This document shows positions 1 to 37,349 of a stretch of 37,349 nt of DNA, in pieces (within the stretch, counting starts at the first letter, position 1; each line of letters starts with the position of its first letter). Under the pieces are notes generated by a model that was not told the DNA's origin, did not search any database, and was given only the letters and a program-made list of their open reading frames with translations. This DNA is from a virus: positions 1 through 37,349 of IMG/VR virus record IMGVR_UViG_3300048029_000432. The stretch is one strand, 5' to 3'. A program made the translations under genes and the position numbers.

Positions 1-112
1 TGCGCATGCCGTCGAGCGTGACGCTAACGTCCAGCAACATAACTGTGCCAGCGCCGCAGACTGTAGGAAGCGGGGAACACTACTACGAGTTCACCAGCGG
101 CAGCGGCACCGT
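1..112 (+). repeat. 112-bp exact direct repeat, copy A
   Basis: These 112 bases are identical to 35968-36079. The match stops after GGCACCGT, where this copy continues AACAGT and the other GCAGGT, with patchy similarity to about base 185. It lies inside fibre coding sequence and sets a circle length of about 35,967 bp. Confidence 0.95.
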
Positions 113-10707: not shown

Positions 10708-10712
10708 GCCGG

Positions 10713-10916: not shown

Positions 10917-10942
10917 TGGCGTCCTTTCGTTGCAGTCGTTGG

Positions 10943-11038
10943 TCAGTACGGGGTGAGCGCCCAGACGTGCAGCGACCAAACGAGCACGCCCAGCAATGCG
11001 CCGGTGCAGGCGGCCATAACGGCCCGGTGGGTTGTCAT
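10943..11038 (-). CDS. Tiny membrane protein, 31 residues
   Basis: An ATG with GGAGC eight to nine bases upstream opens a 31-residue frame. It has one hydrophobic segment (AACTGALLGVLVWSLHVWAL) and a basic N-terminus (MTTHRAV), enough to span the membrane once. It fits the gap between two other minus-strand genes with normal spacing. Function unknown. The evidence is start signal, hydrophobic composition and position. Confidence 0.45.
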   Translation of the reverse strand: MTTHRAVMAACTGALLGVLVWSLHVWALTPY

Positions 11039-11049
11039 GTCGGTTGCTC

Positions 11050-11427
11050 CTAGGGTGCGGCGGCGGAGTTACTCGCGCGCAGAATTGTTGTTGGTAGTGG
11101 CGGGCAGCACTTTGTTGCTTCGCGGAGGCACTCGTTTGCGACTTCGTTCCAGTATTTGTCGCCGCTGTCAGAAAACCCCAGCTCAATGCACCAGAGGCTA
11201 TCGACATAATCTTTAAGCCAGCCGTCACACTCCGCAGAAATTACAAGGCCACAAAAGCACCAGTCGCCTTTCTGCCAGCGTGCAATGTCCGTCTCATCGT
11301 AACAGTCACAGTCGTCTGGGCGGCTATCGTTGTCGTACTCAATGCGCGCCGTGTACGTGACGCCAGCAATTTCAACGCTGATTGAATCGCCAGGCTGCAG
11401 GTCGTCTCTGAAGGTTTCTTTAAACAT
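11050..11427 (-). CDS. Cysteine-rich acidic protein with read-through tail
   Basis: The 125-residue product starts at an ATG with GGGAG eight bases upstream. The first part is beta-rich (SISVEIAGVTYTARIEYDND), followed by clustered cysteines (CDCYDE, WCFCG, CECLREATKCC pattern), which could bind a metal. No family recognised. Its last 18 or so residues (PLPTTILRASNSAAAP) are encoded by the intergenic repeat that in the two neighbouring copies lies after a stop codon. The original C-terminus was therefore probably near the CC pair, and the stop has been lost here. It lies between ArdA and the tiny membrane protein. Confidence 0.6.
   Translation of the reverse strand: MFKETFRDDLQPGDSISVEIAGVTYTARIEYDNDSRPDDCDCYDETDIARWQKGDWCFCGLVISAECDGWLKDYVDSLWCIELGFSDSGDKYWNEVANECLREATKCCPPLPTTILRASNSAAAP
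11053..11098 (-). repeat. Intergenic repeat copy 1 (diverged)
   Basis: On the coding (minus) strand this copy keeps CCAACAACA, then GTAACTCCG and CCGCACCC of the repeat also found at 11442-11489, 12030-12071 and 12279-12320. Here it is translated as the tail of the gene ending at 11050. Confidence 0.55.
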
Positions 11428-11441
11428 GTCATTAGCTCCCA

Positions 11442-11489
11442 GGGTGCGGCGGGCCGCCGGTAAGACGGCACACCGGTTTGTTATTGGCA
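11442..11489 (-). repeat. Intergenic repeat copy 2 (diverged)
   Basis: Located just after the ArdA stop and before the next ribosome site. It shares AACAAACCGG at the stop-codon side and CCGCCGCACCC at the other side with copy 1, but its middle differs and forms its own hairpins (CCGGT/ACCGG and GGCGG/CCGCC). Confidence 0.45.
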
Positions 11490-11491
11490 GG

Positions 11492-12001
11492 TTACGCCGT
11501 GAAGATGAAACAGCCGCTAGGGCCGTCTATGACGGTGTAGTCATGGCGCAAGTCGCGAGCGTGCGCGTCGTAGTCGAAATAATACCGCGCTGGCTCTGGG
11601 ACGTCGTGCAGCATCAGCTCGTCGGCCTGCTGGTCCGCAAAGTCTTGGAACGTGTCGGCCCGGTAGCAGCTCTCCGCGCGGTCAACTACGCTGTCCAGCC
11701 CTTCGCCGTAAAACGCGCCATAAGCAGCGGCAAAAGCCTCTTGGTCGTCGCAGCGCTCGACCGCCTCGACAAATTCGCACAGCGTCGCAATCGACTCATA
11801 TTCGCCGAACGGGACGGCCATATTGAGCGACGTATCATAGTCGGTGAAAAAGTGTTCCTCGGCTCCGGGCGCTGGGCTATCGGCAAGCACGGCCGCAATG
11901 GCGTCGCGCAGGTCGTCTGGGTCGGATGTTACCTCGACCCAGCGGCCGTGCAGGTGGCCGTTATTGTACGCGGCGAGGCATGTCACAAAAGTTTTAAGCA
12001 T
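11492..12001 (-). CDS. ardA: Antirestriction protein ArdA
   Basis: The 169-residue acidic protein matches the ArdA family, elongated DNA mimics that block type I restriction enzymes by occupying their DNA-binding surface. Diagnostic features are the N-terminal AAYNNGHLHGRWVEV, the pattern D.L..AI..VL followed by EEHFFTDYD, an acidic central EY..IATLCEFVEAVE, and an alternating helical C-terminal half rich in Asp and Glu. Its length matches the family. I chose ATG 12001 because GGGGGA lies about nine bases upstream. The frame upstream of it runs through an intergenic repeat. It would protect incoming phage DNA, complementing the phage methyltransferase. Confidence 0.9.
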   Translation of the reverse strand: MLKTFVTCLAAYNNGHLHGRWVEVTSDPDDLRDAIAAVLADSPAPGAEEHFFTDYDTSLNMAVPFGEYESIATLCEFVEAVERCDDQEAFAAAYGAFYGEGLDSVVDRAESCYRADTFQDFADQQADELMLHDVPEPARYYFDYDAHARDLRHDYTVIDGPSGCFIFTA

Positions 12002-12029
12002 TGGTAGATTCCCCCATGTTGGTCGGTGT

Positions 12030-12071
12030 GACGCGCCGGAGTTACCAGCGCGCCGGGTTGTTGTTAGTAGT
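12030..12071 (-). repeat. Intergenic repeat copy 3
   Basis: This copy matches 12279-12320 at 40 of 42 positions, with the first 27 identical. On the minus strand it starts at the TAA of the upstream gene (TAACAACAAC) and holds a hairpin with 7-base arms GGCGCGC and GCGCGTC (one wobble pair) around an 11-base loop. Confidence 0.8.
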
Positions 12072-12252
12072 CGGCGAGACGCCACAACTCGCTAGGCGAG
12101 ACGATACGCTGCTGGTCATCGTGGTTGATGACATACGCAACCGACGCGGCGGCAAAGCTGCCGTTAGCGTCTGGGACGGCCGTAGTCTTTACGACTTCTA
12201 CGCCACGTTTTGCGAGACGGCGGGCCATACCGGCGGAAACAACATTTCTCAT
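12064..12252 (-). CDS. Small basic protein
   Basis: The 62-residue product starts MRNVVSAGMARRLAKRG at an ATG with CGGAG about ten bases upstream. It is basic at the N-terminus and ends in a helical SPSELWRLADY. No motif is recognised. It lies between two nearly identical intergenic repeats (12030-12071 and 12279-12320), and its TAA is part of the first. It belongs to the ArdA unit. Confidence 0.6.
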   Translation of the reverse strand: MRNVVSAGMARRLAKRGVEVVKTTAVPDANGSFAAASVAYVINHDDQQRIVSPSELWRLADY

Positions 12253-12278
12253 TTTTCTATTCTCCGTTTTGGGGTTGC

Positions 12279-12320
12279 GACGCGCCGGAGTTACCAGCGC
12301 GCCGGTTTGTTGTTGGTAGT
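12279..12320 (-). repeat. Intergenic repeat copy 4
   Basis: Nearly identical to 12030-12071. It follows the stop of the first gene of the cluster and has the same hairpin arms. The position between stop codon and next ribosome site is the same in all copies. Confidence 0.8.
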
Positions 12321-12493
12321 TAGAGGCAAGGCGCTTCAACGTGGATGCTGAACCCCAAAGCCTTAATGCTTTCAATGTCACGGTGGGCCAGCGTCTTCGT
12401 GTTGGCGATACGGGCAAAGGTCTTAGCGTACTCACAGACTGGGTAGATAAGTTCGTTGCCGTAGACGTTCTTAATGCGAACCTTGATAGCCAT
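12320..12493 (-). CDS. Small basic protein, first gene of the ArdA unit
   Basis: The 57-residue product (MAIKVRIKNVYGNELIYPV) combines a beta-like N-terminal hairpin with a helix (EYAKTFARIANTKTL) and a second strand (GFSIHVE), a plausible small folded domain. I chose ATG 12493, eight bases after CGGAG; the ATG at 12502 is too close to that site. No family recognised. It lies directly behind the minus-strand promoter at 12524-12552 and should be the most highly expressed gene of the cluster. Confidence 0.6.
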   Translation of the reverse strand: MAIKVRIKNVYGNELIYPVCEYAKTFARIANTKTLAHRDIESIKALGFSIHVEAPCL

Positions 12494-12523
12494 GTCATTC
12501 ACTCCGTTTTGTTGTGTACATGC

Positions 12524-12552
12524 TTTCTAGGGCGTCTTGCCCTAACGGTCAA
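12524..12552 (-). promoter_or_regulatory. Promoter of the ArdA unit with operator
   Basis: On the minus strand TTGACC (12547-12552) and TAGAAA (12524-12529) are 17 bases apart. The spacer is almost filled by the perfect palindrome TAGGGC-GTCTT-GCCCTA (12528-12544). A regulator bound there would block this promoter. Confidence 0.6.
12528..12544. promoter_or_regulatory. Operator O1, perfect 17-bp palindrome
   Basis: TAGGGCGTCTTGCCCTA is symmetric with 6-base arms. It lies between -10 and -35 of the minus promoter and is repeated at 14 of 17 positions at 12596-12612. Confidence 0.65.
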
Positions 12553-12595
12553 CACAAAAACAACAAGCAGAAACAAAAATTTTCGCATGGCACTT

Positions 12596-12616
12596 TCCGG
12601 CGTTTTGCCCTATACT
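12596..12616 (+). promoter_or_regulatory. Operator O2 over the -10 box of the plus promoter
   Basis: TCCGGCGTTTTGCCCTA (12596-12612) matches O1 at 14 of 17 positions. It overlaps TATACT (12611-12616), a good -10 box. No clear -35 is seen. The start codon at 12624 lies at the expected transcription start, so the message may be leaderless. The adjacent XRE gene is the natural candidate for the binding protein. Confidence 0.5.
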
Positions 12617-12623
12617 GTCGCGC

Positions 12624-12821
12624 ATGACACCTGAACAACTACGCAACGCACGCCAAGCGCTGGGCCTGACTGGTGTACAGCTGGCCGCCGTCCTGGGCGT
12701 CGATGCACGCACTTATCGCCGCTATGAGTTGGCAGAAACGCCGATTCCTAAAGTGGCCGCCCTTGCCGTGCGGCTGCTACTGCTAACCGACCCGGAGCGC
12801 TGGCCCGGCCATGACGGATGA
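12624..12821 (+). CDS. Small XRE regulator
   Basis: The 65-residue protein is almost entirely a helix-turn-helix domain (TPEQLRNARQALGLTGVQLA, recognition helix VDARTYRRYE), followed by a leucine-rich helix. Small regulators of this type are frequent in phages of GC-rich proteobacteria. It lies beside operators O1 and O2 and probably binds them, controlling both the ArdA unit and its own operon. It has no ribosome site upstream and may be translated from a leaderless transcript. It overlaps the next gene by 11 bases. Confidence 0.75.
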   Translation: MTPEQLRNARQALGLTGVQLAAVLGVDARTYRRYELAETPIPKVAALAVRLLLLTDPERWPGHDG

Positions 12822-13374
12822 CAACGCGACGCCGACCGGCGGCCTGACACCGGACGAACTGGCCGATGCTCAGCGCCTAAGCGGCGTCGGGTGTACGCAG
12901 GAACAGATTGCCCAATTTTTGGGCATGACGGCGGCCCGATTCCAATCACGTCTCGAAAACACACCTGATGGGCGGGCGACTCTCGCTAGGTCGCGGATTG
13001 GCGCGTCGGCCAGCGTGGCGAACAGCCTGTACAAGCGCGCCACCGAGGACGGCGACACGGCAGCGGCGAAATTCTGGCTTGAACGCATGGGCGGCCCGCA
13101 ATGGCGCGGCACAGAGCAGCAGACCAATATAAACGTGTCACTCACCGGCGCGTTGCGCGACCTGGGCCGCGTTATTGACGGCGAAGCGCACGAAACCGGA
13201 CACCGGCCGCCTATCGAGCCGAACATGGCGCGCGGATTTATTGAGCCGGATCAGTCACTTAGCGGCGACCCGGCCGTGGAATCGCGCCTTGCCAGCAGCA
13301 AGAGGTACATCGTCAGGGACGCGCTGGCCGTGGTGGACGCCTTGGCCGCCGACGACGACGACCCCGACCCCTAG
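12811..13374 (+). CDS. Terminase small subunit candidate
   Basis: The 187-residue protein has a helix-turn-helix near the N-terminus (GCTQEQIAQFLGMTAARFQSR), then a helical stretch (ASVANSLYKRATEDGDTAAA) and KFWLERMGGPQWRG, the pattern of phage small terminases of the type that carry an N-terminal HTH and a FWL..R.P..WR motif. Small terminases recognise the packaging site and load the large subunit. The C-terminal end is acidic (ADDDDPDP). It lies about 1.6 kb before the large subunit, separated by regulators, which is unusual but seen in mosaic phages. Confidence 0.7.
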   Translation: MTDDNATPTGGLTPDELADAQRLSGVGCTQEQIAQFLGMTAARFQSRLENTPDGRATLARSRIGASASVANSLYKRATEDGDTAAAKFWLERMGGPQWRGTEQQTNINVSLTGALRDLGRVIDGEAHETGHRPPIEPNMARGFIEPDQSLSGDPAVESRLASSKRYIVRDALAVVDALAADDDDPDP

Positions 13375-13467
13375 ACCCCCCCCCGTCACGCGCAGACCGA
13401 CCGGTACTTATTATTTGATACCCCCACAACCCCCCCCCTGCGATTTTACGAAAGGACTACAGCCCCA
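13375..13467 (+). other. Short leader with C9, C5 and C9 tracts
   Basis: This gap holds runs of nine C (13376-13384), five C (13421-13425) and nine C (13430-13438), plus AT-rich TTATTATTTGATA. On the minus strand these are G-runs able to form a four-stranded structure. GAAAGGAC, the ribosome site of the next gene, follows. Confidence 0.6.
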
Positions 13468-14109
13468 ATGCTCCAAAAAGTTTTTCGCACTGCCGACCCG
13501 TCCCCCGCCCCCACACCCGACACCGTCCGCGTCGTGCTTCCCGAGGCCCGCAAGCTCCGCAAAATCCGCGCGGCATCCAACCTGACGCAAGAACAGGTCG
13601 GCGCAGCCATTGGCGTTAGCGGCTACGCTGTCAGTTCGTGGGAAGCAGGCACCAACGTGCCTGGCAAGCTGAACCTGCAGAAACTCCGCGACTACATCGC
13701 CAAGCATGACGCGCCCGCTCCTGCGCCCGCAGCGCCGCCCCAGCAGCTAAAGCTGGCCCCAAGCACCGACGAGCCGCCAGCGATGCAGCAGCATGTTATC
13801 CATCAAACCGACAAACCGGCGCTGCGCTTTACCGGCGTAGAAGTCGGTAGCGAAGATTTCGGCTCAGCCTATCCCAACAGCAGGACAACGCCACTGCACG
13901 AAGGGCTCTGGACAATATATCGCACCAAGGGCGGCAATGCTGTCGTCGCGATAAAACGCGGCGCAAACACCACTGTCGATCGGTGGGTATGGCACGGCCC
14001 CCAAACAGAGCTGCACAGACTGTTCGAGCGCGAAGTCGGCAACAAAAATCCGCGCATCATATGTTGGCTCGCCTCGCTGGGCTTCACCGTGTACGAGGAC
14101 ATCGCCTAG
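13468..14109 (+). CDS. XRE regulator with C-terminal domain
   Basis: The 213-residue protein has a Cro/CI helix-turn-helix domain at about residues 28-78 (NLTQEQVGAAIGVSGYAVSS), a proline- and alanine-rich linker (residues 83-105), and a C-terminal alpha/beta domain of about 100 residues with several tryptophans and aromatic residues (LWTIYRTKGG, RWVWHGPQ). The C-terminal domain is not recognised and could sense a ligand or a partner. AAAGGAC precedes the ATG. It may be the activator or repressor of late genes. Its leader carries long C tracts. Confidence 0.7.
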   Translation: MLQKVFRTADPSPAPTPDTVRVVLPEARKLRKIRAASNLTQEQVGAAIGVSGYAVSSWEAGTNVPGKLNLQKLRDYIAKHDAPAPAPAAPPQQLKLAPSTDEPPAMQQHVIHQTDKPALRFTGVEVGSEDFGSAYPNSRTTPLHEGLWTIYRTKGGNAVVAIKRGANTTVDRWVWHGPQTELHRLFEREVGNKNPRIICWLASLGFTVYEDIA

Positions 14110-14893: not shown

Positions 14894-14933
14894 GCCCCGG
14901 CGGTTCCCACATTGGCCGTCGGGGCATTTTTTT
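14894..14933 (+). terminator. Strong terminator just before the large terminase gene
   Basis: GCCCCGGCGG (14894-14903) pairs with CCGTCGGGGC (14916-14925) with one wobble pair, followed by ATTTTTTT. It ends only 17 bases before the terminase ATG at 14951, whose GGAGG lies inside this gap, so late transcription must either read through or start very near. Confidence 0.85.
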
Positions 14934-14950
14934 ACCGGAGGTCCGCCGCC

Positions 14951-16462
14951 ATGGCTAAGCCCCGCAAGCCCAAAGCCACCGCACAGCCGACCGCTCCTGC
15001 GCCTGTACCGGCAGAACCGGCCGCCCCGGCCGCCCCGGCCGCCGCGCTGCCAGCGCTGGATCAGCTGACCGACGAACAGCGCGCCCTGCTGCGGCTACGC
15101 GAAGACCCAGCGCTGTTTGTGCGGACCATCATTGGCGCGACCCCGCAGCGGTGGCAACGCGAGGCGCTAGAAGCAATCCGCGACAACGACCGCGTAGCGA
15201 TCAAGTCGGGGCATGGCGTTGGCAAGACGGCGTTCCTGTCGTGGGTGCTGCTGTGGTGGCTGTGTACGCACTACCCGGTCAAAGCGGCCTGTACGGCCAA
15301 CACGGCCAGCCAGCTTGGCGACGTACTGTGGCCCGAAGTAGCGCGCTGGGCGCGGCAGATGCACCCCGCGTTTAAGGAGCAGTTGGAGTTCCGCAGCGAC
15401 AAAATCTCGCTACGCGGCGGCGGCGAATCCTACGCAGTGGCTCGTACCAGTCGGCGGGATTCCCCCGAATCTCTGCAAGGGTTCCATTCCGAAAATATGC
15501 TGTTCATCCTAGATGAAGCGTCGGGCATTCCTGATATTATCTTCGAAGTCGGGCAGGGGTCGCTATCCACGCCGGGCGCTAAAATCGTCATGTGTGGCAA
15601 CCCAACCCGCAGCAGCGGGTATTTCTACGACGCGTTCAACAAAAACGTAGATCGCTGGGCCACGATGACGGTGTCATGCGCCGACGCCGATTACGTCCGT
15701 CTTGGCTTTATCGAAGAAATGCGCGAGCAGTACGGCGAGGATTCCAACCAGATGCGGGTCCGCGTCTACGGGCTGTTCCCCGAGGCGGACGATGACACGA
15801 TCATACCCTTACACTTGGTTGAAGCTGCGCTCACGCGAGACGTGGAACCTATACAGGGCATGCGACCGGTATGGGGTCTCGACGTTGCGCGTTATGGCAG
15901 CGACCGGACTGCTCTAGCCAAACGACGCGGCAACAGCTTGGCCGAACCGATCAAGGCGTGGCAGGGCAAAGACCTGATGGAAATCTGCGGCATCGTGCTG
16001 GAAGAATTCGACGCCTGCAACTACGACGACCGCCCCGCCGAAATACTGGTAGACGTGATTGGCCTTGGCGCTGGCGTCGTGGACCGCCTCAAGGAAATGG
16101 ACTTCGTGCCGGTACGCGGGATCAACGTCGCCGAGTCCGCCGCGCTGTCACAGAAGTACCTACGCCTGCGCGACGAACTGTGGTTCCAGTGCCGCGAGTG
16201 GCTAGAGCAGCGCGATTGCAGCCTGCCCAAAGACGACGGCGTACTGCAGGCCGAACTAACCGCGCCACGGTTCAAGTTCCAGTCGAACGGTAAACTCAAG
16301 GTAGAGTCGAAGGAAGAACTGAAACGCCGTGGTCAGCGCAGCCCTGATTTGGCCGATGCTCTGATGCTGACGTTTGCCTCCACCGCAGCCAAGGCGGGTA
16401 GCGGGAGACACCGTTCCTATGGTAAGACATTATCTTACGGCAACGGGCAACAATACGTCTGA
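14951..16462 (+). CDS. terL: Terminase large subunit
   Basis: The 503-residue motor packages DNA into proheads. After a Pro/Ala-rich N-terminal arm (residues 10-35) come the ATPase domain with Walker A SGHGVGKTA (about 86-94) and Walker B LFILDE (Asp188, Glu189), a motif III-like MCGNPTR, and an RNase H-fold nuclease with GLDVARYGSD (Asp311), LVDVIGLG and SPDLADAL carrying further acidic residues. I chose ATG 14951 because GGAGG precedes it; the longer frame runs through the terminator. It is unlike the T7-type terminase at 36997 and probably packages by a headful mechanism, matching the circular arrangement. Confidence 0.93.
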   Translation: MAKPRKPKATAQPTAPAPVPAEPAAPAAPAAALPALDQLTDEQRALLRLREDPALFVRTIIGATPQRWQREALEAIRDNDRVAIKSGHGVGKTAFLSWVLLWWLCTHYPVKAACTANTASQLGDVLWPEVARWARQMHPAFKEQLEFRSDKISLRGGGESYAVARTSRRDSPESLQGFHSENMLFILDEASGIPDIIFEVGQGSLSTPGAKIVMCGNPTRSSGYFYDAFNKNVDRWATMTVSCADADYVRLGFIEEMREQYGEDSNQMRVRVYGLFPEADDDTIIPLHLVEAALTRDVEPIQGMRPVWGLDVARYGSDRTALAKRRGNSLAEPIKAWQGKDLMEICGIVLEEFDACNYDDRPAEILVDVIGLGAGVVDRLKEMDFVPVRGINVAESAALSQKYLRLRDELWFQCREWLEQRDCSLPKDDGVLQAELTAPRFKFQSNGKLKVESKEELKRRGQRSPDLADALMLTFASTAAKAGSGRHRSYGKTLSYGNGQQYV

Positions 16463-27848: not shown

Positions 27849-29654
27849 GTGGACACCTACCGCGTAAAAGGAGCCGACGGCAAAACATACAAGGTCCGTG
27901 CGTCCACGCCCGAAGCCGCCGCAAGCGCGGTGCGCACGATGCTTGCTGCCGACGCCCCAGCTGCACCGGCCGCACCCGCAGCGCGGTCCGGCAACGACGT
28001 CGGCAACACGCTGCGCACGCTACTGGGGCAGGGCGCTGGCTTTGGTTTCGGCGATGAGGCTGAAGCCGGGGTTCGCTCGCTATTTAGCGACCGCAGCTAT
28101 GGCGACATCCGTGGCGACATCAACGACGAAATCGACGCGTTCCGGTCCCGCAATCCGGGCCTCGCATACGGCAGCGAAATCGCCGGTGCGCTGGGGCCGA
28201 CGTTGGCAGCTGCGGTTGCTACGCCGTTCACCGGCGGCGGTGCTGGCGCAGGCGCTGCTGCAGGCGCGGGCCGCATCGCAATGGCCGGTAACAAGCTGCG
28301 CCAGTTGGCGACCCCGGCACTACGGCCTGTCGCGCAGCCTATTGCAAAGGCGTCCAAAGCCGTTGACGCGGTGCTGCCTACCGGCCCGCTGAAACGCGCT
28401 GCCACGGTCGGCGCTGTGCAGGGCGGCATTTCCGGCGCTGGCTACGCGGATGGCGGGCTAGAGGACCGCGCAGGCGGCGCTGCGGTCGGTGCCGCGCTGG
28501 GCACAGGGCTAACTGTTGGCGGCGCTGCGGTACTGCCGAAACTAGCTCCAGGCGCTAAGGAAATCATTAACCGGGGAATCACGCTCACACCGGGGCAAGC
28601 AACCGGCGCAAACAGCCTTACCAACCGCATTGAACAGTTGGCGACTAGCACGCTGACCGGCCCTGCAATTGCTGCCGCACGTCGCCGCGCAGACGCCCAG
28701 TATTTCCCGATTGCCGCTCGCGAAGCGTTGGAAGCCGCAGGGCAGACACTCGACAACCCGGCAACGGGCAAGCTGTCCGCAAACGAAGTCATGGATCAAC
28801 TTGTTGCAGGGTCGCGACAGGCTTACGACGAAGCCGCTGCGGGGCTTAACGTCAAAGACCTTGGCGGACAGCTCATTTACGGGTCTGCGAAAGATATTAT
28901 TGAGTCGCTGGACGGCAAGGTTGTTAAGAAAATCCGCAAGGCCGTGAGTGACGCTGCAGAGGAACTGTCCGACGGTAAGGGGGCTAAGGTGCGCGCAGCG
29001 TTTGACGCGATTAGCACCGGCAAGCCGGTCCCCGTGTTCGACCTTAGCGGCCAAGACCTGCTGAAGATCAAAAACAAGCTGCGCAAGAAGGCGCGCAACG
29101 CTCTCGGGGTGAGGGAAAACCAGCTCTACAACGCCCTAGAAATGCTGCAGCGGAACATCATTGATAACGCAGGCCGCGTTTCTGGTGCTGGCGCAGCCGC
29201 TGTCCGAAACGCCGACACGCTATTCCGCGAGACCAAGGGCGTGTTCGCCCCAGCGTTCCAGCGCACTGGCTACGACGAAGCGCCCCGGATTAGCGGAATT
29301 GCGGCCGCACGGCAGAAGAACCTGCAGAAGTTTGGCTCGAACGACGCCATTGAGGCCCGCCTGCCGGACGACGCCCAGCTGGCGACCATGACAGCGAACA
29401 CCACGCCAAACAGCGGCACGATAGATCGCGGCACGCTTATGATGCTGCTGAACAACATTGGCCGCGTTGGCGGGGCAGGGGCTTCATTTGCGATCAGCCC
29501 GTCGCTGCTTACCGCACAGCTCGCCGGTGTGCCGTACATGACCCCGCAAACGACCGCAATGCTACGGCAAGGCCTGCTCGCACCTGGCCGCATCACGCAG
29601 GCGCTTGGCGGGCGCTTTGGCGGCATGATTGGAGGCGAAAATGCCCAGGAATGA
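27849..29654 (+). CDS. Internal virion / DNA transfer protein
   Basis: The 601-residue protein begins with GTG and a short conserved start (TYRVKGADGKTYKVRASTPE). A Gly/Ala-rich, membrane-like section (about residues 110-240; GALGPTLAAAVATPFTGGGA) follows, then a helical half with TLTPGQATG. This layout is common in ejected proteins of podoviruses, which cross the envelope and help DNA enter the cell. It is the third of three ejection-type genes. The stop overlaps the next start by 14 bases. Confidence 0.7.
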   Translation: MDTYRVKGADGKTYKVRASTPEAAASAVRTMLAADAPAAPAAPAARSGNDVGNTLRTLLGQGAGFGFGDEAEAGVRSLFSDRSYGDIRGDINDEIDAFRSRNPGLAYGSEIAGALGPTLAAAVATPFTGGGAGAGAAAGAGRIAMAGNKLRQLATPALRPVAQPIAKASKAVDAVLPTGPLKRAATVGAVQGGISGAGYADGGLEDRAGGAAVGAALGTGLTVGGAAVLPKLAPGAKEIINRGITLTPGQATGANSLTNRIEQLATSTLTGPAIAAARRRADAQYFPIAAREALEAAGQTLDNPATGKLSANEVMDQLVAGSRQAYDEAAAGLNVKDLGGQLIYGSAKDIIESLDGKVVKKIRKAVSDAAEELSDGKGAKVRAAFDAISTGKPVPVFDLSGQDLLKIKNKLRKKARNALGVRENQLYNALEMLQRNIIDNAGRVSGAGAAAVRNADTLFRETKGVFAPAFQRTGYDEAPRISGIAAARQKNLQKFGSNDAIEARLPDDAQLATMTANTTPNSGTIDRGTLMMLLNNIGRVGGAGASFAISPSLLTAQLAGVPYMTPQTTAMLRQGLLAPGRITQALGGRFGGMIGGENAQE

Positions 29655-30204
29655 CCTAACACAGCTGTCCGCAACCGACGCGGAAAACACCGACATCAAG
29701 GGCGTATCTATCGCGGAAGGCATGGCCCCCAGTGGCGTGAACAACGCGATCCGCGCCGTGGCGGCAATGTTGGCCGACGCGTTTGCAGCAGCGGCCCCCG
29801 GAACCAAGCTGACGGCCGTGAAAGCCGCAAACGTAATAGTGGCCGACACCACGGACCGGCTGACCATCGGCACGACTAGCCCGACGCTGGTAAGCCACGA
29901 CAACAGCACGACCACCACGACCATCGACGCGGAACGCAACCTGACGCTGGAAGTCGGCACGACCGGCACGCAGGCGTCGTTCAAGGTGGACGGCCACGAC
30001 AGCACCGCGAAACGCACGCTGATCGACGTGGCAGCAAACGGCGCGATCACGCTGGGCAACACCAGCTACAGCCCCGCACCGACAGCAGCCGTAACGGTAA
30101 ACGGCACGCTCAACGCGACAAACTACACAGGCGACGGCAGCAACCTGACCGGCGTCACGACCCTTGGTAAAGCGGCCGCAATGGCCCTGATTTTCGGAGG
30201 CTGA
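29641..30204 (+). CDS. Tail fibre-like protein, cassette 1 gene A
   Basis: The 187-residue protein has an N-terminal region typical of fibres (LTQLSATDAENTDIKGVSIA, then PSGVNNAIRAVAAMLADAF), a Thr-rich beta region, and a late TGDGSNLTGV motif common in fibres. It ends GKAAAMALIFGG, nearly the same ending as the larger fibre at 31657-33363 (AAAMALVLG). GGAGG lies before the ATG. It begins the first of two matching three-gene cassettes (29641-31647 and 31657-36164). It probably builds part of the fibre base. Confidence 0.75.
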   Translation: MPRNDLTQLSATDAENTDIKGVSIAEGMAPSGVNNAIRAVAAMLADAFAAAAPGTKLTAVKAANVIVADTTDRLTIGTTSPTLVSHDNSTTTTTIDAERNLTLEVGTTGTQASFKVDGHDSTAKRTLIDVAANGAITLGNTSYSPAPTAAVTVNGTLNATNYTGDGSNLTGVTTLGKAAAMALIFGG

Positions 30205-30205
30205 A

Positions 30206-30571
30206 ATGGCAGCACCTAACATCGTCGGGGTCGCCACGATCACCGGCAAGACCGCAGTAGCGGCAGACATCGCAACCAGCCCAGCGGCGGCTACGCTGAC
30301 CAACGCGACCAGCAGCGACGACGTCTACAAGGTCAACGCGATCCTGATTAGCAACGTCGCAAGCCCGGCGGCTGACACGACTGTGTCGGTGTTCCTGCGG
30401 CGTAACAGTGCGGATTACTACATCGTCAACGGGATCGACGTGCCGCAGAAGTCCACTTTGGACGTGCTGAACAAGCCGCTGTACCTCGAAGAAGGCGACG
30501 CGCTGTGGCTGCAAGCAGGCGCTACAAACGCGCTGGACGCGGTAATCAGCTACGAGGTCATCACGGACTAA
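30206..30571 (+). CDS. Small fibre-associated protein, cassette 1 gene B
   Basis: The 121-residue beta-rich protein is a clear paralogue of the gene at 33376-33750. Both start MAAPNI and share KVN.I.I.NV, a later LDVL, YLEE.D and a final SYE.I. The predicted form is a small beta sandwich. The two copies sit at the same position in the two cassettes, between the fibre with the AAAMAL ending and the large tip protein, so it may link them. GGAGG precedes the ATG. Confidence 0.75.
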   Translation: MAAPNIVGVATITGKTAVAADIATSPAAATLTNATSSDDVYKVNAILISNVASPAADTTVSVFLRRNSADYYIVNGIDVPQKSTLDVLNKPLYLEEGDALWLQAGATNALDAVISYEVITD

Positions 30572-31647
30572 TGGCGCAGGGCTGGCACTACGGCGGGATT
30601 ATTGGGCAAGACCCACGCGGCGGCACCGGAGGCCTGCGAACGTCTGGCGTGCGTGCCGTGGCCGATGCTGGGCAGACGACCGGCGGCTTGCCTGACAGCA
30701 CCCTGACCAGCGACGAGACTATCGCAAACGGCACCGTCGATGCGCAGCTCAAGTCAGGCAACGGTTTCTCTTTTGGCGGGGCTGTTGGCGGCACGTCTAA
30801 TGATGGCTCGACGGTGCTTGTTGGCGCAAACCAAGGTTTCTACTGGTACGAACTGTCTACGCCTTACGACTTTTCGACGCGCGGCACCCGTAACAACAAG
30901 AGTTTTTACAGCGATTCTGGATTTAACAGCGCGTACAACCAATTTTACCGCGCTCCGTATTTTGCGCCGAACGGCATGTCCATCATTTGCGTCGGCAGCG
31001 CCGGTTCGCCTGACGATTTGTTGCAAATACCGCTTACCCAAGCATACAACCCTGCTACTGCATCGCTGACCCACACAACCGTGTCCAACGGCGGGGATAA
31101 CGACCACCGCATGTCGCCAGACGGCACGAAGATATTTAAGTCACACGTTTCTGGCGGCGACATCGACACCCTGTCCACGCCGGGCGACATCACAACGATC
31201 AGCACGACTACGCTGTCGCAGGACGCAGACGCGGGCGTAAGCGGATATGCGCTCGTTCCAAACTCAACTGTTCCAGTATGCGACATCACCGGGAGGCGTT
31301 GGTTTGGTATGTTTGAGCGGTCGTCAGACTCCACCTTTCATTTCATTGCCGGAACGTCAGCTGCCGCATACGCAATCGACGCGATTACGTGGGACACGAC
31401 GAAAACTTACAATATCGGCACTTCAAGAAGCGGCTGGGACTTTGCAATCAGTGCGGACCACACCCGCGTGCTGTTTGCCCACCGCGACTCTAACAGCGAC
31501 CAAGTAACACGCTCCCTTGCGCTCGCTGACCTCGGCAAACCCACACAGCGCTGGGGCCGCCAGCTTGGCCGTAGCCCGTTCGACGGCACTGCGCTCCGCA
31601 ACACCGGCGTAATCACCACCACCGAAGCGTACCAGCTCCAATTGTAG
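30571..31647 (+). CDS. Beta-propeller tail tip protein, cassette 1 gene C
   Basis: The 358-residue protein starts with WHYGGIIGQDPRGG and TSGVRAV, matching the start of the fibre at 33753 (YFGGIVGADP, RTSGVF). The body shows at least four propeller-like units (DGSTVLVGANQGFYWYELST, PNGMSIICVG with LLQIPL, SPDGTKIFKS with IDTLST, and SADHTRVLFA), typical of receptor-binding beta propellers in phages. The end (KPTQRWGRQLGRS) corresponds to RPTRRWGGMTGRS in the second fibre. It starts within the previous stop (TAATG). It probably recognises a surface receptor different from that of cassette 2. Confidence 0.72.
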   Translation: MAQGWHYGGIIGQDPRGGTGGLRTSGVRAVADAGQTTGGLPDSTLTSDETIANGTVDAQLKSGNGFSFGGAVGGTSNDGSTVLVGANQGFYWYELSTPYDFSTRGTRNNKSFYSDSGFNSAYNQFYRAPYFAPNGMSIICVGSAGSPDDLLQIPLTQAYNPATASLTHTTVSNGGDNDHRMSPDGTKIFKSHVSGGDIDTLSTPGDITTISTTTLSQDADAGVSGYALVPNSTVPVCDITGRRWFGMFERSSDSTFHFIAGTSAAAYAIDAITWDTTKTYNIGTSRSGWDFAISADHTRVLFAHRDSNSDQVTRSLALADLGKPTQRWGRQLGRSPFDGTALRNTGVITTTEAYQLQL

Positions 31648-31656
31648 GACCGCACC

Positions 31657-33363
31657 ATGGCAAACATCTATGACCTGACAGATACGTGGAGCGACGGAAA
31701 TACCACGTACACCAGCATCAAAATGAACGTGACGAACACCGCGTCGTCGGCGGCGTCGAAACTCATCGACCTGCAAGTTGGCAGCAGCAGCCTGTTCAGC
31801 GTGGACAAAGACGGCAAGATCGCCGACGCCACGGAACTGCAGGTCGACAACGTCAAGGTAGACGGCAACACGGTCAGCAGCACGACCGGCAACCTGGTGC
31901 TTGACCCGTACAGCGGCAGCAAGATCAGCCTCGACGGCCTGCTGTGGCCCAACGCAGACGGTAGCGCGAACCAGATGCTGCAGACCGATGGCGCGGGCAA
32001 CCTGTCGTGGGGAACGCCTGCAGCCGGGTACAGCAACAGCGACGTCGATACGCACCTGAATACCAGCGGCGCGACCACGAACCAAGTGCTGTCGTGGACT
32101 GGCAGCGACTACGCATGGACCGCACAGACCGTGGCGTTTGGCACGGCGGACGTAGACGCACACCTGAACCAGTCCAACCCGACCAGCGGTTACGTGCTGT
32201 CATGGAACGGCTCTGACTACGCATGGGTCGCACAAACCGGCGGCAGCAGCTACGGCGACACGGACGTTGATACGCACCTGAACCGCAGCACCGCAACGAC
32301 CGGCCAGCTGCTCAGCTGGAACGGCAGCGACTATGACTGGATCACCAGCACCGCAGGCGGCGGCAGCTACGCGGATTCCGATGTAGACGCCCACCTCAAC
32401 CGTAGCACCGCCAGCACCGGCGAGGTGCTTAGCTGGAACGGCAGCGATTACGACTGGGTCGCGCAGTCCGGCGGCGGCAGCAGCTACGGCGACGCGGACG
32501 TGAACACGCACCTGAACCAGTCCAGCGCTGCGTCTGGGCAAGTGCTGCAATGGAACGGCTCTGACTACGCGTGGGTGGCGCAGACCGCTGCCTACACCGA
32601 CAGCAGCGTGGACACGCACCTAAACCGTAGCAGCGCCAGCAGCGGCCAGATTCTGAGCTACAACGGCAGCGATTACGCATGGATTGCCGACGCAGGCATC
32701 ACGGACGTTGTGTCGGACACGACCCCGCAGCTTGGCGGCAACCTCGACCTGAACACGAACGACATCACCGGCACCGGCAACATCAACATCACCGGCAACG
32801 CGACGGTCAGCGGCTACCTTGCTGGGCCTGCTACGTTCACCATCGACCCGGCCGCCGTTGGCGACAACACTGGTACGGTCGTGATTGCGGGCGACCTGCA
32901 AGTAGACGGCACGACCACGACGATCAACAGCACGACGCTGGAAGTAGACGACAAGAACATCGTGGTCGCATCCGGCGCTGCAAACGCCGCAGCGGCAGAC
33001 GGTGCGGGGCTTACCGTGGACGGTGCCAGCGCGACGTTCACCTACGCTGCAACCGGCGACAAGTGGACCGCAAACAAGCCGCTGGACCTTGGCGCGAACG
33101 ACCTGCTGGCCGACCATATCAAGGCAACCGGCGACGGCAGCAACAACGGCAAACTGGACCTGCAGTGCAGCGCTGGCAGCCACGCTGTAACGCTGGAAGG
33201 CCCGGACCATAGCGGCGCAAGCAGCTACACGCTGAAGTTCCCGCAGACCGCACCGGCCGCAGGGCAAGTGCTGGCGCAAAACAGCGCAAACAATCAACTC
33301 GAATTTGTAGATCAACCAAGTGCCGCCGGTGTTGCCGCCGCGATGGCGCTGGTACTCGGCTAA
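31657..33363 (+). CDS. Long tail fibre with six repeats, cassette 2 gene A
   Basis: The 568-residue protein starts MANIYDLTDTWSDGNTTYTS and holds six tandem units of about 36-40 residues (about residues 127-348) with the pattern DV(D/N)(T/A)HLN then LSW.GSDY.W. The following part is rich in Gly, Thr and Asn with fibre motifs (LGGNLDLNTNDITGTGNI, LQVDGTTTTINSTTLEVDDK), and the end is AAAMALVLG. The style is that of fibres in cyanophage- and pelagiphage-like viruses. AGGA lies before the ATG. It is the cassette-2 counterpart of 29641-30204. Confidence 0.8.
   Translation: MANIYDLTDTWSDGNTTYTSIKMNVTNTASSAASKLIDLQVGSSSLFSVDKDGKIADATELQVDNVKVDGNTVSSTTGNLVLDPYSGSKISLDGLLWPNADGSANQMLQTDGAGNLSWGTPAAGYSNSDVDTHLNTSGATTNQVLSWTGSDYAWTAQTVAFGTADVDAHLNQSNPTSGYVLSWNGSDYAWVAQTGGSSYGDTDVDTHLNRSTATTGQLLSWNGSDYDWITSTAGGGSYADSDVDAHLNRSTASTGEVLSWNGSDYDWVAQSGGGSSYGDADVNTHLNQSSAASGQVLQWNGSDYAWVAQTAAYTDSSVDTHLNRSSASSGQILSYNGSDYAWIADAGITDVVSDTTPQLGGNLDLNTNDITGTGNINITGNATVSGYLAGPATFTIDPAAVGDNTGTVVIAGDLQVDGTTTTINSTTLEVDDKNIVVASGAANAAAADGAGLTVDGASATFTYAATGDKWTANKPLDLGANDLLADHIKATGDGSNNGKLDLQCSAGSHAVTLEGPDHSGASSYTLKFPQTAPAAGQVLAQNSANNQLEFVDQPSAAGVAAAMALVLG
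32041..32700 (+). repeat. Six tandem coding repeats in the long fibre
   Basis: Six units of about 105-120 bases, roughly starting at 32041, 32149, 32263, 32380, 32497 and 32605, encode DVDTHLN...LSWNGSDY.W repeats. Units differ at many synonymous positions, so the repeat is old or kept by protein-level selection. Confidence 0.75.
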
Positions 33364-33375
33364 GGAGCACAGACA

Positions 33376-33750
33376 ATGGCAGCACCAAACATCCGTGGCG
33401 CAACCGGCACGATCAACGGCAAAGTCGCCGGGTTACTAGTGACGTCCAGCGCGCTAGACCTCGTTGCAAACGCGGCTGGCAGCAACAAACTGCTGAAGGT
33501 CAACACGATCATCATTGCGAACGTAGACACCGCAGCCGCAGACGAAGTGCTGGTGACGCTGATCAAGGGCGTAGGCACGGGTAGCCCCTCGACGTTCCAC
33601 CTTGCGAAGAACATCAGCATTCCGGCCAAGGCGTCGCTCGACGTGCTGGCTGGGTCTGTCTACCTCGAAGAAGACGACAAGATTCAAGTGCAGGGCGTAG
33701 CAGCCAGCGGCGACCTCGAAGCTATCGTGTCATACGAGGACATCAGCTAA
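33376..33750 (+). CDS. Small fibre-associated protein, cassette 2 gene B
   Basis: The 124-residue protein is the paralogue of 30206-30571. It starts MAAPNIRG and keeps LLKVNTIIIANV, ASLDVL, YLEEDD and IVSYEDI. AAGGAG lies eight bases before the ATG, and the gene is three bases from the next GTG start. The pair shows that a gene set, not one gene, was duplicated. Confidence 0.75.
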   Translation: MAAPNIRGATGTINGKVAGLLVTSSALDLVANAAGSNKLLKVNTIIIANVDTAAADEVLVTLIKGVGTGSPSTFHLAKNISIPAKASLDVLAGSVYLEEDDKIQVQGVAASGDLEAIVSYEDIS

Positions 33751-33752
33751 CC

Positions 33753-36164
33753 GTGGGCAAGCGCGCGAAACACTACTTTGGCGGGATCGTTGGCGCGGAC
33801 CCGCTCGTAAGCGGCACACCACGCACCAGCGGCGTCTTCAACCTCGGCGCGCTTTCCGCCGACAACGCCTTTGAAGCGCCCAGCCTCGACCTGAACTTCG
33901 ACGGGCAGGCCAGCAGCTTCACCCGTGCTACGACAAGTCCGACTGCCGCGAAGGCCAACGGCGACCAGCTCGCGACCGACATCGTTAGCTGCACACGGTC
34001 CACCACGGCGACGTATATGGGTAGCAACGGCCTAATCCAGACAGCAGCAGTAAACACCCCCCGCGTCGAGTACGACGCCTCGGGCAACCCGCTGGGGCTG
34101 CTGGTCGAGGAGCAGCGGACGAACCTCTATCCCGGCACTACTCCAAGCAATACGGCAGCGGTTACGTTCACGACGAACCAAGGGGCGGCTCCTGACGGCA
34201 CCAACACCGCTATTAAAGCGACTGAAGACAGCGCTCTGGGCGAGAAAAACGCAAACACCGCACTGTTTTCCGTCACGAGCGGTACGCAGTACACTGCGTC
34301 GCTCTACGCTAAGCCTGCTGGACGCACAGGCATCCGACTGCTCATGCCGGGAGCCGCATTTGGTAACAATAATGTCGCTACCTACGACCTCCAAGGCAAC
34401 GGCTCCATAATCGAATGGCCCGGGTCTGACACTCCAGACGCCACGACCATTACACCCGCTGGGAATGGGTGGTATCGCATTAGCATCACCAGCACAGCGG
34501 CTAGTACCGCAAGTACGTTCTTGCAGATGGTCATCGACGATGACGGGACTGATACCAACACGTCTTACCAAGGCGACGGCAGCAGCGGACTGCTGATATG
34601 GGGCATCCAGAGCGAGGAAGGCGCTGGCCCGACTAGCTACATCCCCACGACCTCTGGCAGTGTCACCCGCGCAGCCGACGAGATCACGTTGGCGACGAGT
34701 GCGTTTGGGTTTGAAGAGACCACGGGGTCGGTCCTTGCGGATGTAACCATCGACCACGCGACAGGCAGTTATGAGCGCGTTTTTGAGTTTGGCACGTCAA
34801 ATACCAACACAGATCGCGTTTTCATGTTTCTCGACGCCGCCAACAACAACGACATTGAGGCTCGGATCAACACTGGCGGCACAGCCAATGTCGCAGCAGA
34901 AAATGTGATTGTTGCAAGCCCTACGTTCCCGCACACTAGCAAACTAGCGATGAGCTACGCTGCGGGCAACTACATGACCGCCGATGACGGAGCGCTGGTC
35001 AGCATGACAGCGGGCGCATACAACCCGGGAGGCAGTAAGCCGCAACTGCGGCTGGGAGGACACCAGCAAACCAGTTTGACCATGAACGGCCATATTCGCC
35101 GCTTCACCTACTGGCCGCGTGCGCTCTCCGACGCCAGCCTCGCCAGCTACACCGGCACGAACCCGCCGACTATCGACCTTGACCGGCCCACGCGGCGGTG
35201 GGGCGGGATGACCGGGCGGTCGCTGGTGGCGAGCACGGCGGCACCCACCACAGCTTCCATCGACTACCTAGTGGTCGGCGGCGGTGGTGCGGGCGGTAGC
35301 AAACACGCTGGCGGCGGCGGAGGTGGTGGCGGTGTGCTTAGCGGCACAACGACCTCGGTCTCCGATGGGGCCAGCCTTGACGTTACCGTCGGTTCTGGCG
35401 GCGTAGGCAGCTCCTCCACTGGCGGCACAGACGGCGACGATAGCGTACTGGACTATGGCACGACGATTACTGCTCTCGGCGGCGGTCGTGGTGGCTCAGA
35501 GGGTTTCCTCGGAGGCCAGAACGGCGGCTCCGGCGGTGGCGGTGCAGGCGATACCCAGTCCAACCGCAACCTTGGCGGCGCTGGCGAAGCTGGTCCCCCG
35601 CGGCAAGGCTACGATGGTGGCACTGGTACTGGATTTGCCTTTTCAAACCGGTACGGCAATGGAGCTGGTGGCGGCGGAGCCGGTAGCGCGGGCCAAAGTG
35701 CCACCAACAGCGACGGCGGTGACGGCGGCGACGGCGTGACAAGTTCGATAACCGGCTCTGCGGCCTACTATGGCGGCGGCGGCGGGGGCGGCTACTATTC
35801 TGGCGGCGGTGCTCCCGGTTCTGGCGGCCAAGGCGGCGGCGGCGATGGTGTTAGCTCAAACGCAGGCAACAACGGCCAAGCAAATACCGGCGGTGGCGGA
35901 GGCGGCTCCGGCGGTACCGGCGGCACTGCACGGATTGGCGGCTCTGGCGGCTCCGGCGTGGTGATACTGCGCATGCCGTCGAGCGTGACGCTAACGTCCA
36001 GCAACATAACTGTGCCAGCGCCGCAGACTGTAGGAAGCGGGGAACACTACTACGAGTTCACCAGCGGCAGCGGCACCGTGCAGGTAAACATTGCGGCAGC
36101 GTCCACTAACGTCCCCACGACCGGCGTGCTCACCCTCGCGGAACACTACCAAAGTAAAATCTAA
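33753..36164 (+). CDS. Large tail fibre / adhesin with LamG-like and polyglycine domains
   Basis: The 803-residue protein starts with GTG. Its start (YFGGIVGADPLVSG, TSGVFNLG) matches cassette 1 gene C. Residues about 40-480 follow a pattern common in phage fibres with lectin-like beta-sandwich domains (STTATYMG...TPRVEY...LGLLVEEQRTNL, then SVTRAADEI). From about residue 502 the sequence SIDYLVVGGG opens a domain of roughly 240 residues made of long Gly runs and ending SGVVILRMPSS, as in polyglycine adhesins such as the S16 gp38 type. The tip after residue 775 is replaced by a variant relative to 1-194. It is probably the main receptor-binding protein. Confidence 0.8.
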   Translation: MGKRAKHYFGGIVGADPLVSGTPRTSGVFNLGALSADNAFEAPSLDLNFDGQASSFTRATTSPTAAKANGDQLATDIVSCTRSTTATYMGSNGLIQTAAVNTPRVEYDASGNPLGLLVEEQRTNLYPGTTPSNTAAVTFTTNQGAAPDGTNTAIKATEDSALGEKNANTALFSVTSGTQYTASLYAKPAGRTGIRLLMPGAAFGNNNVATYDLQGNGSIIEWPGSDTPDATTITPAGNGWYRISITSTAASTASTFLQMVIDDDGTDTNTSYQGDGSSGLLIWGIQSEEGAGPTSYIPTTSGSVTRAADEITLATSAFGFEETTGSVLADVTIDHATGSYERVFEFGTSNTNTDRVFMFLDAANNNDIEARINTGGTANVAAENVIVASPTFPHTSKLAMSYAAGNYMTADDGALVSMTAGAYNPGGSKPQLRLGGHQQTSLTMNGHIRRFTYWPRALSDASLASYTGTNPPTIDLDRPTRRWGGMTGRSLVASTAAPTTASIDYLVVGGGGAGGSKHAGGGGGGGGVLSGTTTSVSDGASLDVTVGSGGVGSSSTGGTDGDDSVLDYGTTITALGGGRGGSEGFLGGQNGGSGGGGAGDTQSNRNLGGAGEAGPPRQGYDGGTGTGFAFSNRYGNGAGGGGAGSAGQSATNSDGGDGGDGVTSSITGSAAYYGGGGGGGYYSGGGAPGSGGQGGGGDGVSSNAGNNGQANTGGGGGGSGGTGGTARIGGSGGSGVVILRMPSSVTLTSSNITVPAPQTVGSGEHYYEFTSGSGTVQVNIAAASTNVPTTGVLTLAEHYQSKI
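35968..36079 (+). repeat. 112-bp exact direct repeat, copy B
   Basis: Identical to 1-112. It lies in the large fibre gene just before the tip. Sequence beyond it differs from the left-end copy and leads to a T7-like block. Confidence 0.95.
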
Positions 36165-36174
36165 GGATAACAAC

Positions 36175-36381
36175 ATGTTAGACACCGATAAACCTTGGTG
36201 GCAGTCAAAGACTGTCATCTCGGTCGGGGTCATGATGCTAGGCATGGGCCTCAAGCAACTTGGCTTCGACACAGGCGAACTAGAAACCGATATTACTGCT
36301 CTGGCGCTAGACGGCGCTATGGTAGTGGCGGGTGCTATCGCCATCTGGGGACGCATCACGGCGACTAAAGCCTTGCGCTGA
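36175..36381 (+). CDS. Second holin-like protein (right-end block)
   Basis: The 68-residue protein shares KPWWQSKTV and AIWGR with the holin at 454-675 and has two membrane segments (about residues 14-28 and 46-60) separated by an acidic turn. It lies ten bases after the variant fibre end, preceded by AAGGATAA. In T7 the holin follows the tail fibre in the same way. It overlaps the next ATG by one base. It probably belongs to a T7-like phage rather than to the rest of the genome. Confidence 0.72.
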   Translation: MLDTDKPWWQSKTVISVGVMMLGMGLKQLGFDTGELETDITALALDGAMVVAGAIAIWGRITATKALR

Positions 36382-36629
36382 TGTCCGACCTAAAGATCCC
36401 CGGAGCATCGCCCGACTGGCGAGCCAGAATCCTCAAGCTGGAGTTCCAGACTGAGGCCCACGGCTCCCAGTTATCCAATCTAACCGACAAGACCAACGCT
36501 ATGGCTGACAGCCTAGATTCTATCCAGCGAACCCTAGCGCAGATCCGGTGGATTGCTATCGGTGCTGCGGTGGCTCTGACCGCCAAGGAGATGAACCTCA
36601 TGTCTCTCCTTAGCTTTGTCGGCATATAG
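36381..36629 (+). CDS. XhlA-like small membrane protein
   Basis: The 82-residue protein has a helical, charged N-terminal half (DWRARILKLEFQTEAHGSQL, then MADSLDSIQRTLAQIRW) and one hydrophobic segment at about residues 56-80. This matches haemolysin XhlA-like or related lysis accessory proteins, which carry a cytoplasmic coiled coil and a C-terminal anchor. Its position between holin and small terminase corresponds to accessory lysis genes in T7-like phages. No Rz1-type lipoprotein is seen beside it. Confidence 0.5.
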   Translation: MSDLKIPGASPDWRARILKLEFQTEAHGSQLSNLTDKTNAMADSLDSIQRTLAQIRWIAIGAAVALTAKEMNLMSLLSFVGI

Positions 36630-36639
36630 CCCCTAGAAG

Positions 36640-36670
36640 CCCCTAGGAGACTCCCTGAGAGTCTCTGGGG
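36640..36670 (+). other. Stem-loop in the right-end gap
   Basis: GAGACT (36647-36652) pairs with AGTCTC (36660-36665), and CCCC (36640-36643) with GGGG (36667-36670). No T-run follows. A second small hairpin (CGGCC/GGCCG near 36715-36730) precedes the ribosome site of the next gene. T7-like phages often have RNA-processing hairpins here. Confidence 0.5.
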
Positions 36671-36742
36671 GCCACTGACTCCCTACCACCCCAATCTAGC
36701 TACAACCCGCACAGCGGCCCTAGGAGGCCGTATGGAGGAATC

Positions 36743-37000
36743 ATGTCCAACACTAAGTCAAAGAAGGCAACTGAGGGCGAACTCAGTGAACTCCACGGCC
36801 TCCTAGCTCGCTTCTTCAAGGGCAAGCTATTGGGTGACCAAGAGTTGACAGCAGCGGAGCTTGGCCAAATCCGCCAGTTCCTAAAAGACAACCATATCGA
36901 AGCCAATGCAGAGCAGAACCCAGACATGCTGGCGATTGCTCAGAAGCTCCCTGAGTTCGAAGACGATGGCTACGACGACACTGAAGGCTCAATGCACTGA
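36743..37000 (+). CDS. T7-like terminase small subunit
   Basis: The 85-residue protein follows the T7 gp18 pattern: a helical start (ELSELHGLLARFFKGKLLG), AAELGQIRQFLKDN in the middle and an acidic end (EFEDDGYDDTEG). GGAGG lies before the ATG. It is directly upstream of a T7-type large terminase, as gene 18 is in T7. It is unrelated to the small-subunit candidate at 12811-13374, so the window has two packaging systems. Lower GC than the main genome supports a different origin. Confidence 0.75.
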   Translation: MSNTKSKKATEGELSELHGLLARFFKGKLLGDQELTAAELGQIRQFLKDNHIEANAEQNPDMLAIAQKLPEFEDDGYDDTEGSMH

Positions 37001-37349
37001 GTACCGACAAGTTAACGGCAGTTAAGAAGGACTTCCGCAAGTTCGTTTACGTCTTGTGGAAGCACCTTGCCCTCCCAGATCCGACCACAATCCAATACGA
37101 CATCGCAGCCTTCTTACAACATGGCCCAAAGCGGTCTATGGTCTCCGCATTCCGAGGGGTCGGCAAAAGCTGGCTCACAAGTGCCTACGTTGTGTGGCTG
37201 CTACTAAATGATCCAGACATCAAGATCCTTGTCGTATCCGCTAGTAAAGACAGAGCGGATGCGTTCAGCGTCTTCGTGAAGCGTATCATCCATGAAGTGG
37301 ACATCTGCCAGCACCTGATCCCCGGCCCCGACCAGCGGTCCTCTAACAT
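36997..37349 (+). CDS. T7-like terminase large subunit, 5' part (partial)
   Basis: About 117 codons are present before the window ends. The frame shows FVYVLWKHLALPDPT, the Walker A region SAFRGVGKSW, then TSAYVVWLLLNDP and KILVVSASKDRADAFSVFVK, all close to T7 gp19. The frame is open only from 36985. The codon aligned with the T7 initiator is CTG (36997-36999) followed by AGTACC, matching the MST start of gp19 except for the first base. No ATG or GTG lies in this position, and the first TTG (37054) would remove conserved sequence. It overlaps the small-subunit stop. Confidence 0.88.
   Translation, partial: MSTDKLTAVKKDFRKFVYVLWKHLALPDPTTIQYDIAAFLQHGPKRSMVSAFRGVGKSWLTSAYVVWLLLNDPDIKILVVSASKDRADAFSVFVKRIIHEVDICQHLIPGPDQRSSN

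Follow-up and report, generated by a model that had tools for sequence, protein, structure and literature searches.

Two A-B-C gene cassettes in a podovirus contig probably encode attachment fibres of one modular shaft-socket-tip design

The window analysed here, the whole 37,349-nucleotide stretch of IMG/VR record IMGVR_UViG_3300048029_000432, is a contig of a water-borne virus whose genes include a podovirus-type portal (phrog_1216), an integrase and a capsid protein, with a terminase at 14912. Six genes between 29641 and 36164, all on the + strand, form two A-B-C cassettes. They are genuine genes and lie at the coordinates given by an initial annotation, made from the sequence alone, which described them as a tandem duplication of a tail-fibre cassette. 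Our reading, to which we assign a probability of about 0.6, is that the two cassettes specify separate attachment fibres built to one modular plan, each with a shaft (A), a socket (B) and a tip (C). The features of the two cassettes are as follows.

29641..30204 (+): A1, putative short fibre shaft of 187 amino acids; its residues 1-38 are a probable tail-anchoring head, by sequence likeness common to fibre genes of related spring-water phages
30160..30201 (+): C-terminal peptide of A1, TLGKAAAMALIFGG, for which docking is proposed; matrix score 26.6 bits
30206..30571 (+): B1, jelly-roll protein of ~120 amino acids (fold via the modelled homologue B2), proposed socket of fibre 1
30571..31647 (+): C1, putative tip protein of fibre 1, 358 amino acids, made up of an N-anchor (residues 1-27), a body without assigned fold, a degenerate handle and a C-anchor
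31537..31575 (+): degenerate handle of C1, KPTQRWGRQLGRS, adjoining the C-anchor
31657..33363 (+): A2, putative long fibre shaft of 568 amino acids
33325..33360 (+): C-terminal peptide of A2, AGVAAAMALVLG, for which docking is proposed; missing from the fused A2 of relative L123
33376..33750 (+): B2, predicted jelly-roll protein (model pLDDT 91.1), proposed socket of fibre 2
33753..36164 (+): C2 as the contig reads, 803 amino acids; from 36080 probably foreign to this phage
33753..33854 (+): N-anchor of C2 (GGIVGADP...TSGVFNLGAL), 88% identical in nucleotides to relative L003 as far as 33853
33984..34715 (+): slot 1 domain of C2 (residues 78-321), homologous to the RcGTA head-spike fibre Rcc01080
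35184..35234 (+): handle of C2, RPTRRWGGMTGRSLVAS, the conserved border of slots 1 and 2
35241..35975 (+): slot 2 of C2, a Gly_rich_2 domain (E=6.1e-24)
36114..36161 (+): C-anchor as the contig reads, PTTGVLTLAEHYQSKI (T7-like branch)

The two B proteins, whose relatedness had been proposed initially, are homologous over their whole length, with 39% identity (BLASTP, E=3e-23). An AlphaFold2 model of B2, built from 66 sequences, has nine strands with a pLDDT of 91.1 and a pTM of 0.83, and the predicted fold is a single jelly roll. Its best VIA-align fold matches (Z 9-10) include nucleoplasmin-type domains, the trimeric KHP40 phage cement protein (Z 9.6), the HFTV1 turret and Bacillus Ena subunits. 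Among viral proteins, the top matches are phage proteins either uncharacterised or labelled "virion structural", together with S-SKS1 SWZG_00003, a longer protein with two B-like domains; several of these structural neighbours are annotated as virion proteins. A profile search of PDB sequences with B matched no meaningful chain, and the RcGTA spike base Rcc01079 is not among the listed fold matches. As a side observation, three B proteins of other contigs (L088:9584-10258, L092:3270-3944 and L105:2531-3205) hold an inserted domain of ~105 amino acids with, by eye, a cupredoxin-like H...C..H..M pattern, which would place a possible copper site at the joint of the fibre. At another locus (L106:10001-10713), two B genes stand side by side ahead of one C gene.

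BLASTP finds no similarity between A1 and A2. The initial annotation had noted a shared AAAMAL ending, and this part of its claim holds up above chance as a family-wide GKAIAMAIVFG signature, while the rest of A1 and A2 proved to be without similarity. A variant of this signature ends 43 of 75 distinct genes that directly precede a clear B. A position matrix derived from A genes in other phages, with the window, L003 and L032 left out, gives A1 26.6 bits and A2 12.5 bits, compared to 9.5 for the top of 3,772 C-termini of antisense open reading frames. The same tail precedes B in six of seven loci from bacterial genome assemblies, as well as in Pelagibacter phage HTVC033P, phage DSL-LC04 and Synechococcus phage Bellamy; a literature search on the motif text "IAMAI" returned no paper. 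Further upstream, A2 contains six repeats of 36-39 amino acids at 32029-32694 (VDTHLN...VLSWNGSDYAWV). The A2 of L003 has five of them, indicating that shaft length differs among relatives.

The C proteins combine constant ends with unrelated bodies. C1 and C2 match each other only over short segments, namely the handle (E=5e-4), the N-anchor (E=0.019) and the C-terminus (E=0.49), and these three elements recur in identical order in the C genes of many other phages. Hence, the shared start and handle motif described initially are confirmed, with the C-terminus added to them, but the likeness does not extend to the bodies. In the close relative L003, whose B2 is 91% identical, C2 retains the N-anchor, RPTRRWGGMTGRS and the C-terminus, and everything between them differs. 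C1 follows the plan of C2, and in relative L032 the ends of C1 are retained with a different body between them. By pattern search, the handle motif was located in tip genes of ~14 further distinct contigs, all of them in the order N-anchor, slot 1, RPTRRWGG[MI]TGRS and slot 2, and most of these genes close with PTTGVLSLAEHYQ. Slot exchange is apparent: two of these genes (L141 and L142) are 98% alike in slot 1 and unrelated in slot 2, and one domain family fills slot 1 in some genes and slot 2 in others. Residues 78-321 of C2 match residues 43-285 of Rcc01080 (E=7e-31), and residues 497-741 are a Gly_rich_2 domain (PF21722; 85.7 bits against a gathering cut-off of 24.3, E=6.1e-24). The polyglycine part of the domain assignment first made for C2 is thus borne out by Pfam; its LamG-like part finds partial support in the Rcc01080 match, with no Laminin_G Pfam hit in C2.

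The strongest evidence that B and the A tail serve tip attachment comes from a natural deletion in L123, a member of the same phage group whose region downstream of the fibre matches window positions 184-1205 at 89%. Its A2 is 79% identical to that of the window over residues 1-558 of 568, diverges just ahead of the tail peptide and continues into ~400 fused residues, partly glycine-rich. The A tail, B2 and C2 are all missing, and the common downstream genes come directly after the fused A2. This indicates that the tail peptide, B and C are gained and lost together as one unit, replaceable by a tip fused to the shaft, and the joint loss together with the fused tip leads us to see in B a socket by which an exchangeable tip is coupled to the shaft.

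Is the pair of cassettes the product of a tandem duplication? A search of viral contigs with B yielded more than 100 loci, and the search for phages with different cassette numbers, suggested at the outset, could be answered in terms of B genes: among 33 distinct B loci of at least 15 kb, 21 have one B and 12 have two. Together with the successive sets in Bellamy, the 12 loci with two B genes indicate that two cassettes are common. Duplication within this lineage, with the copies later diverging and their A and C bodies being replaced, has a real chance of being correct, if somewhat short of even. The identical gene order occurs twice, the topology test does not reject a B1+B2 clade (p-AU 0.30), and in relative L032, whose capsid protein is 92% identical, a second A-type gene begins after C1. 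Against this, each B is nearer to the B of other phages than to its counterpart, with 55-57% identity between B1 and its nearest relatives outside its own lineage and up to ~50% for B2, compared to 39% between the two, and the A bodies and the C bodies are unrelated. The B tree is unresolved, neither supporting nor rejecting the B1+B2 clade. A recent tandem duplication as an established fact was rejected, given the 39% identity and the unresolved tree, and the duplication stated by the initial annotation is not demonstrated. For A and C similarity is limited to short motifs, the bodies being unrelated; in B alone it extends over the full length. An ancient duplication is plausible, and so is the acquisition, on separate occasions, of two cassettes that belong to one widespread kind.

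In the design that we propose, A would form the shaft, and its last ~12 residues would be a conserved hydrophobic docking peptide received by B, a small jelly-roll protein that is probably oligomeric. C would be the host-binding tip, docking onto B by its short N-terminal Gly/hydrophobic anchor. Fibre 1 would have a short shaft with a head-like first 38 residues and fibre 2 a long shaft with its six ~37-residue repeats, each with its own B and C. Receptor range would then shift when a C body or an entire B-C unit is swapped, or when the A tail, B and C together give way to a shaft-fused tip. Two adhesins of different specificity, as first suggested, fit the presence of two distinct shafts and two B proteins, and of two tips whose bodies are unrelated; one tip has a domain homologous to a capsule-binding spike protein. 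There are precedents, though not proof, for B gripping C by its N-anchor. In the RcGTA spike a jelly-roll pentamer holds the fibre through the N-terminal Leu/Gly peptide of the fibre (PMC7296036), and an N-terminal peptide is also bound by Bacillus ExsF, whose fold is likewise near that of B (PMC11952670); by analogy, B may do the same.

Several points weigh against this design. The data establish the order of the genes, the homology and predicted fold of B, the conserved A tail, the handle with its exchanged slots and the joint loss in L123; physical contacts, a B oligomer and receptor binding are what we infer, and for the contacts and the oligomeric state this counts on the negative side. 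Some B genes have other neighbours, such as a C starting YSY.G or a 150-amino-acid protein, and several T7-like contigs have a gap of ~1 kb between B and the handle-bearing C, suggesting that B need not contact that C. The final A residues FGG overlap the GGAGG ribosome site before B1, so that some of the tail conservation may be at the DNA level. C1 is without recognisable fold: it has no family, PDB or phage match, its AlphaFold2 prediction from two sequences has a pLDDT of 28, and its internal repeat score was reached by 57 of 200 shuffles. The beta propeller that the initial annotation suggested for C1 gains support from none of these results.

Two other roles for B were considered. It could be an intermolecular chaperone or assembly factor for A or C, like V22 gp27, Tfa or T4 gp38, forming no lasting joint in the virion. 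A small gene between fibre genes is in the usual chaperone position, but B is a jelly roll predicted with high confidence whose nearest folds are virion decoration and appendage proteins, several of its structural neighbours are annotated as virion proteins, three B proteins carry the cupredoxin-like insert, one locus has a B-B tandem, and S-SKS1 SWZG_00003 unites two B-like domains in one longer protein, all of which make this role unlikely. Slightly less likely still is a lectin-like receptor-binding B, with A, B and C as three independent surface proteins. The annotation of B as a "putative lectin" in phage DSL-LC04 points this way, as does the frequent binding of sugars by jelly rolls, but B is the most conserved member while the tips vary, and the A tail, B and C disappear jointly in L123.

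The proposed plug-in A-B-C fibre design occurs in many aquatic phages. In cyanomyoviruses (Synechococcus phages Bellamy and S-SKS1) and Pelagibacter phage HTVC033P (one cassette, gp66-gp65-gp64), as in the window, a fibre gene, a ~120-amino-acid gene and a large tip gene follow one another, and Bellamy gp39-gp40-gp41 has both an A tail (GKAIALSMVFG) and a clear B. Bellamy (1302-13483) contains four successive sets of a fibre gene, a ~120-135-amino-acid gene and a large gene; unlike in the window, a clear B is found in just one of the four, the small genes of the other three matching B marginally or not at all (E values of 0.005, 0.013 and 0.8). The genes of these known cassettes are annotated as hypothetical, and the cyanophage cases belong to larger, contractile-tailed phages. 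The RcGTA head spike (base Rcc01079, fibre Rcc01080) likewise has a small jelly-roll base adjoining the fibre, and the slot 1 domain of C2 is homologous to this fibre, which binds capsule (PMC10218006). However, that spike is borne on the capsid, whereas here a shaft with a conserved tail precedes the base, and B, a predicted jelly roll, has no sequence match to any PDB chain. A host-recognition module common to unrelated marine phages is known from the fibre and chaperone modules of Alteromonas phages V22 and A5 (PMC10579305, PMC7289586). The V22 chaperone gp27 (21.8 kDa, not firmly retained with the fibre) is unlike B in size, and no similarity between B and V22-type gp27 was found. Literature on tandem or modular fibres offered general precedents only. 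In T4-type gp38 adhesins, conserved glycine-rich motifs lie between hypervariable segments, and the exchangeable tip thus resembles C in its alternating build; C differs in its own motif (RPTRRWGG..GRS), in the separate B that links it to the shaft, and in the swapping of whole domains. For aquatic-phage fibre genes annotated as hypothetical, the tail peptide, jelly-roll socket and tip anchor provide a testable assembly rule, and receptor-binding tips become recognisable by their constant ends despite unrelated bodies.

The handle shows a possible route of tip swapping between unrelated phages. Its DNA is 78-96% identical between the window or L003 on one side and phages with B proteins of only 27-33% identity on the other, and its Thr-Gly-Arg is always encoded ACC GGG CGG; GGG makes up 13.5% of Gly codons and CGG 19.8% of Arg codons in the window. 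This conservation and codon constancy fit domain exchange via the handle, although strong constraint at the DNA level or ordinary descent of a conserved core could conceivably account for them instead. It is close to an even prospect, on the tentative side, that fixed DNA handles (51 bp within the tip gene and ~48 bp at its end) let unrelated phages, here an integrase-bearing podovirus and T7-like phages, exchange whole binding domains, with the joint of shaft tail, B and C making the tip swappable at the protein level too. Among isolate phages, blastn with 60 bp of the handle gave weak, chance-level matches only. By appearance, the N-anchor DNA (GGTGACGGGGCGTCC) and the handle DNA (ATGACCGGGCGGTCG) in L003 and T7-like contigs look alike (TGAC.GGGCG.TC).

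The 3' end of C2 coincides with an irregularity of the contig, the features of which are listed here.

1..112 (+): first of the two copies of an exact 112-bp repeat, coding for the end of slot 2 of C2
113..194 (+): sequence that is probably the real 3' end of this phage's C2 (...PLPTTGVLSLAEHYQGTL-stop); next come the genes located behind C2 in relative L031/L170
35968..36079 (+): second copy of the 112-bp repeat, an exact match to window 1-112 and the point where the assembly branches
36080..37349 (+): probable foreign tail of the contig (T7-like phage), with a second, T7-type terminase

Past position 112 the sequence runs through a C-anchor and a stop into the genes found right after C2 in L031/L170, whereas past 36079 a different C-anchor is followed by a holin-like gene, then two small genes and a terminase of T7 type. 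The genes of this second branch are closest to the T7-like contigs L169 and L171 (holin 87%, terminase 89% and 81%). The window would otherwise contain two large terminase genes of different families, at 14912-16462 (phrog_2) and 37054-37349 (T7-type, phrog_38). The repeat, the gene order of L031/L170 and this doubling point to 36080-37349 as a very probable chimeric join to a T7-like phage that was present in the same sample. Most simply, the genome would be circular and ~36 kb long, with C2 ending at window 113-194, and the assembly would have jumped at a segment common to both phages; the place of the switch is one we infer from sequence. A phage with two terminases was considered and rejected, since the chimera accounts for both. 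A natural T7-like insertion is very improbable: the contig does read through unbroken, but the branch carries an exact 112-bp repeat of the contig's first bases, a relative has the left-end genes of the window directly after C2, and two different terminases would be placed in one podovirus genome. If the chimera is true, the T7-like phage shares at least 112 identical bp of a tip domain, a sign of recent exchange, and the case illustrates how shared segments can mislead metagenome assembly. Elsewhere in the window, a C5-type DNA methyltransferase gene (3987-5096, - strand) adjoins the integrase region.

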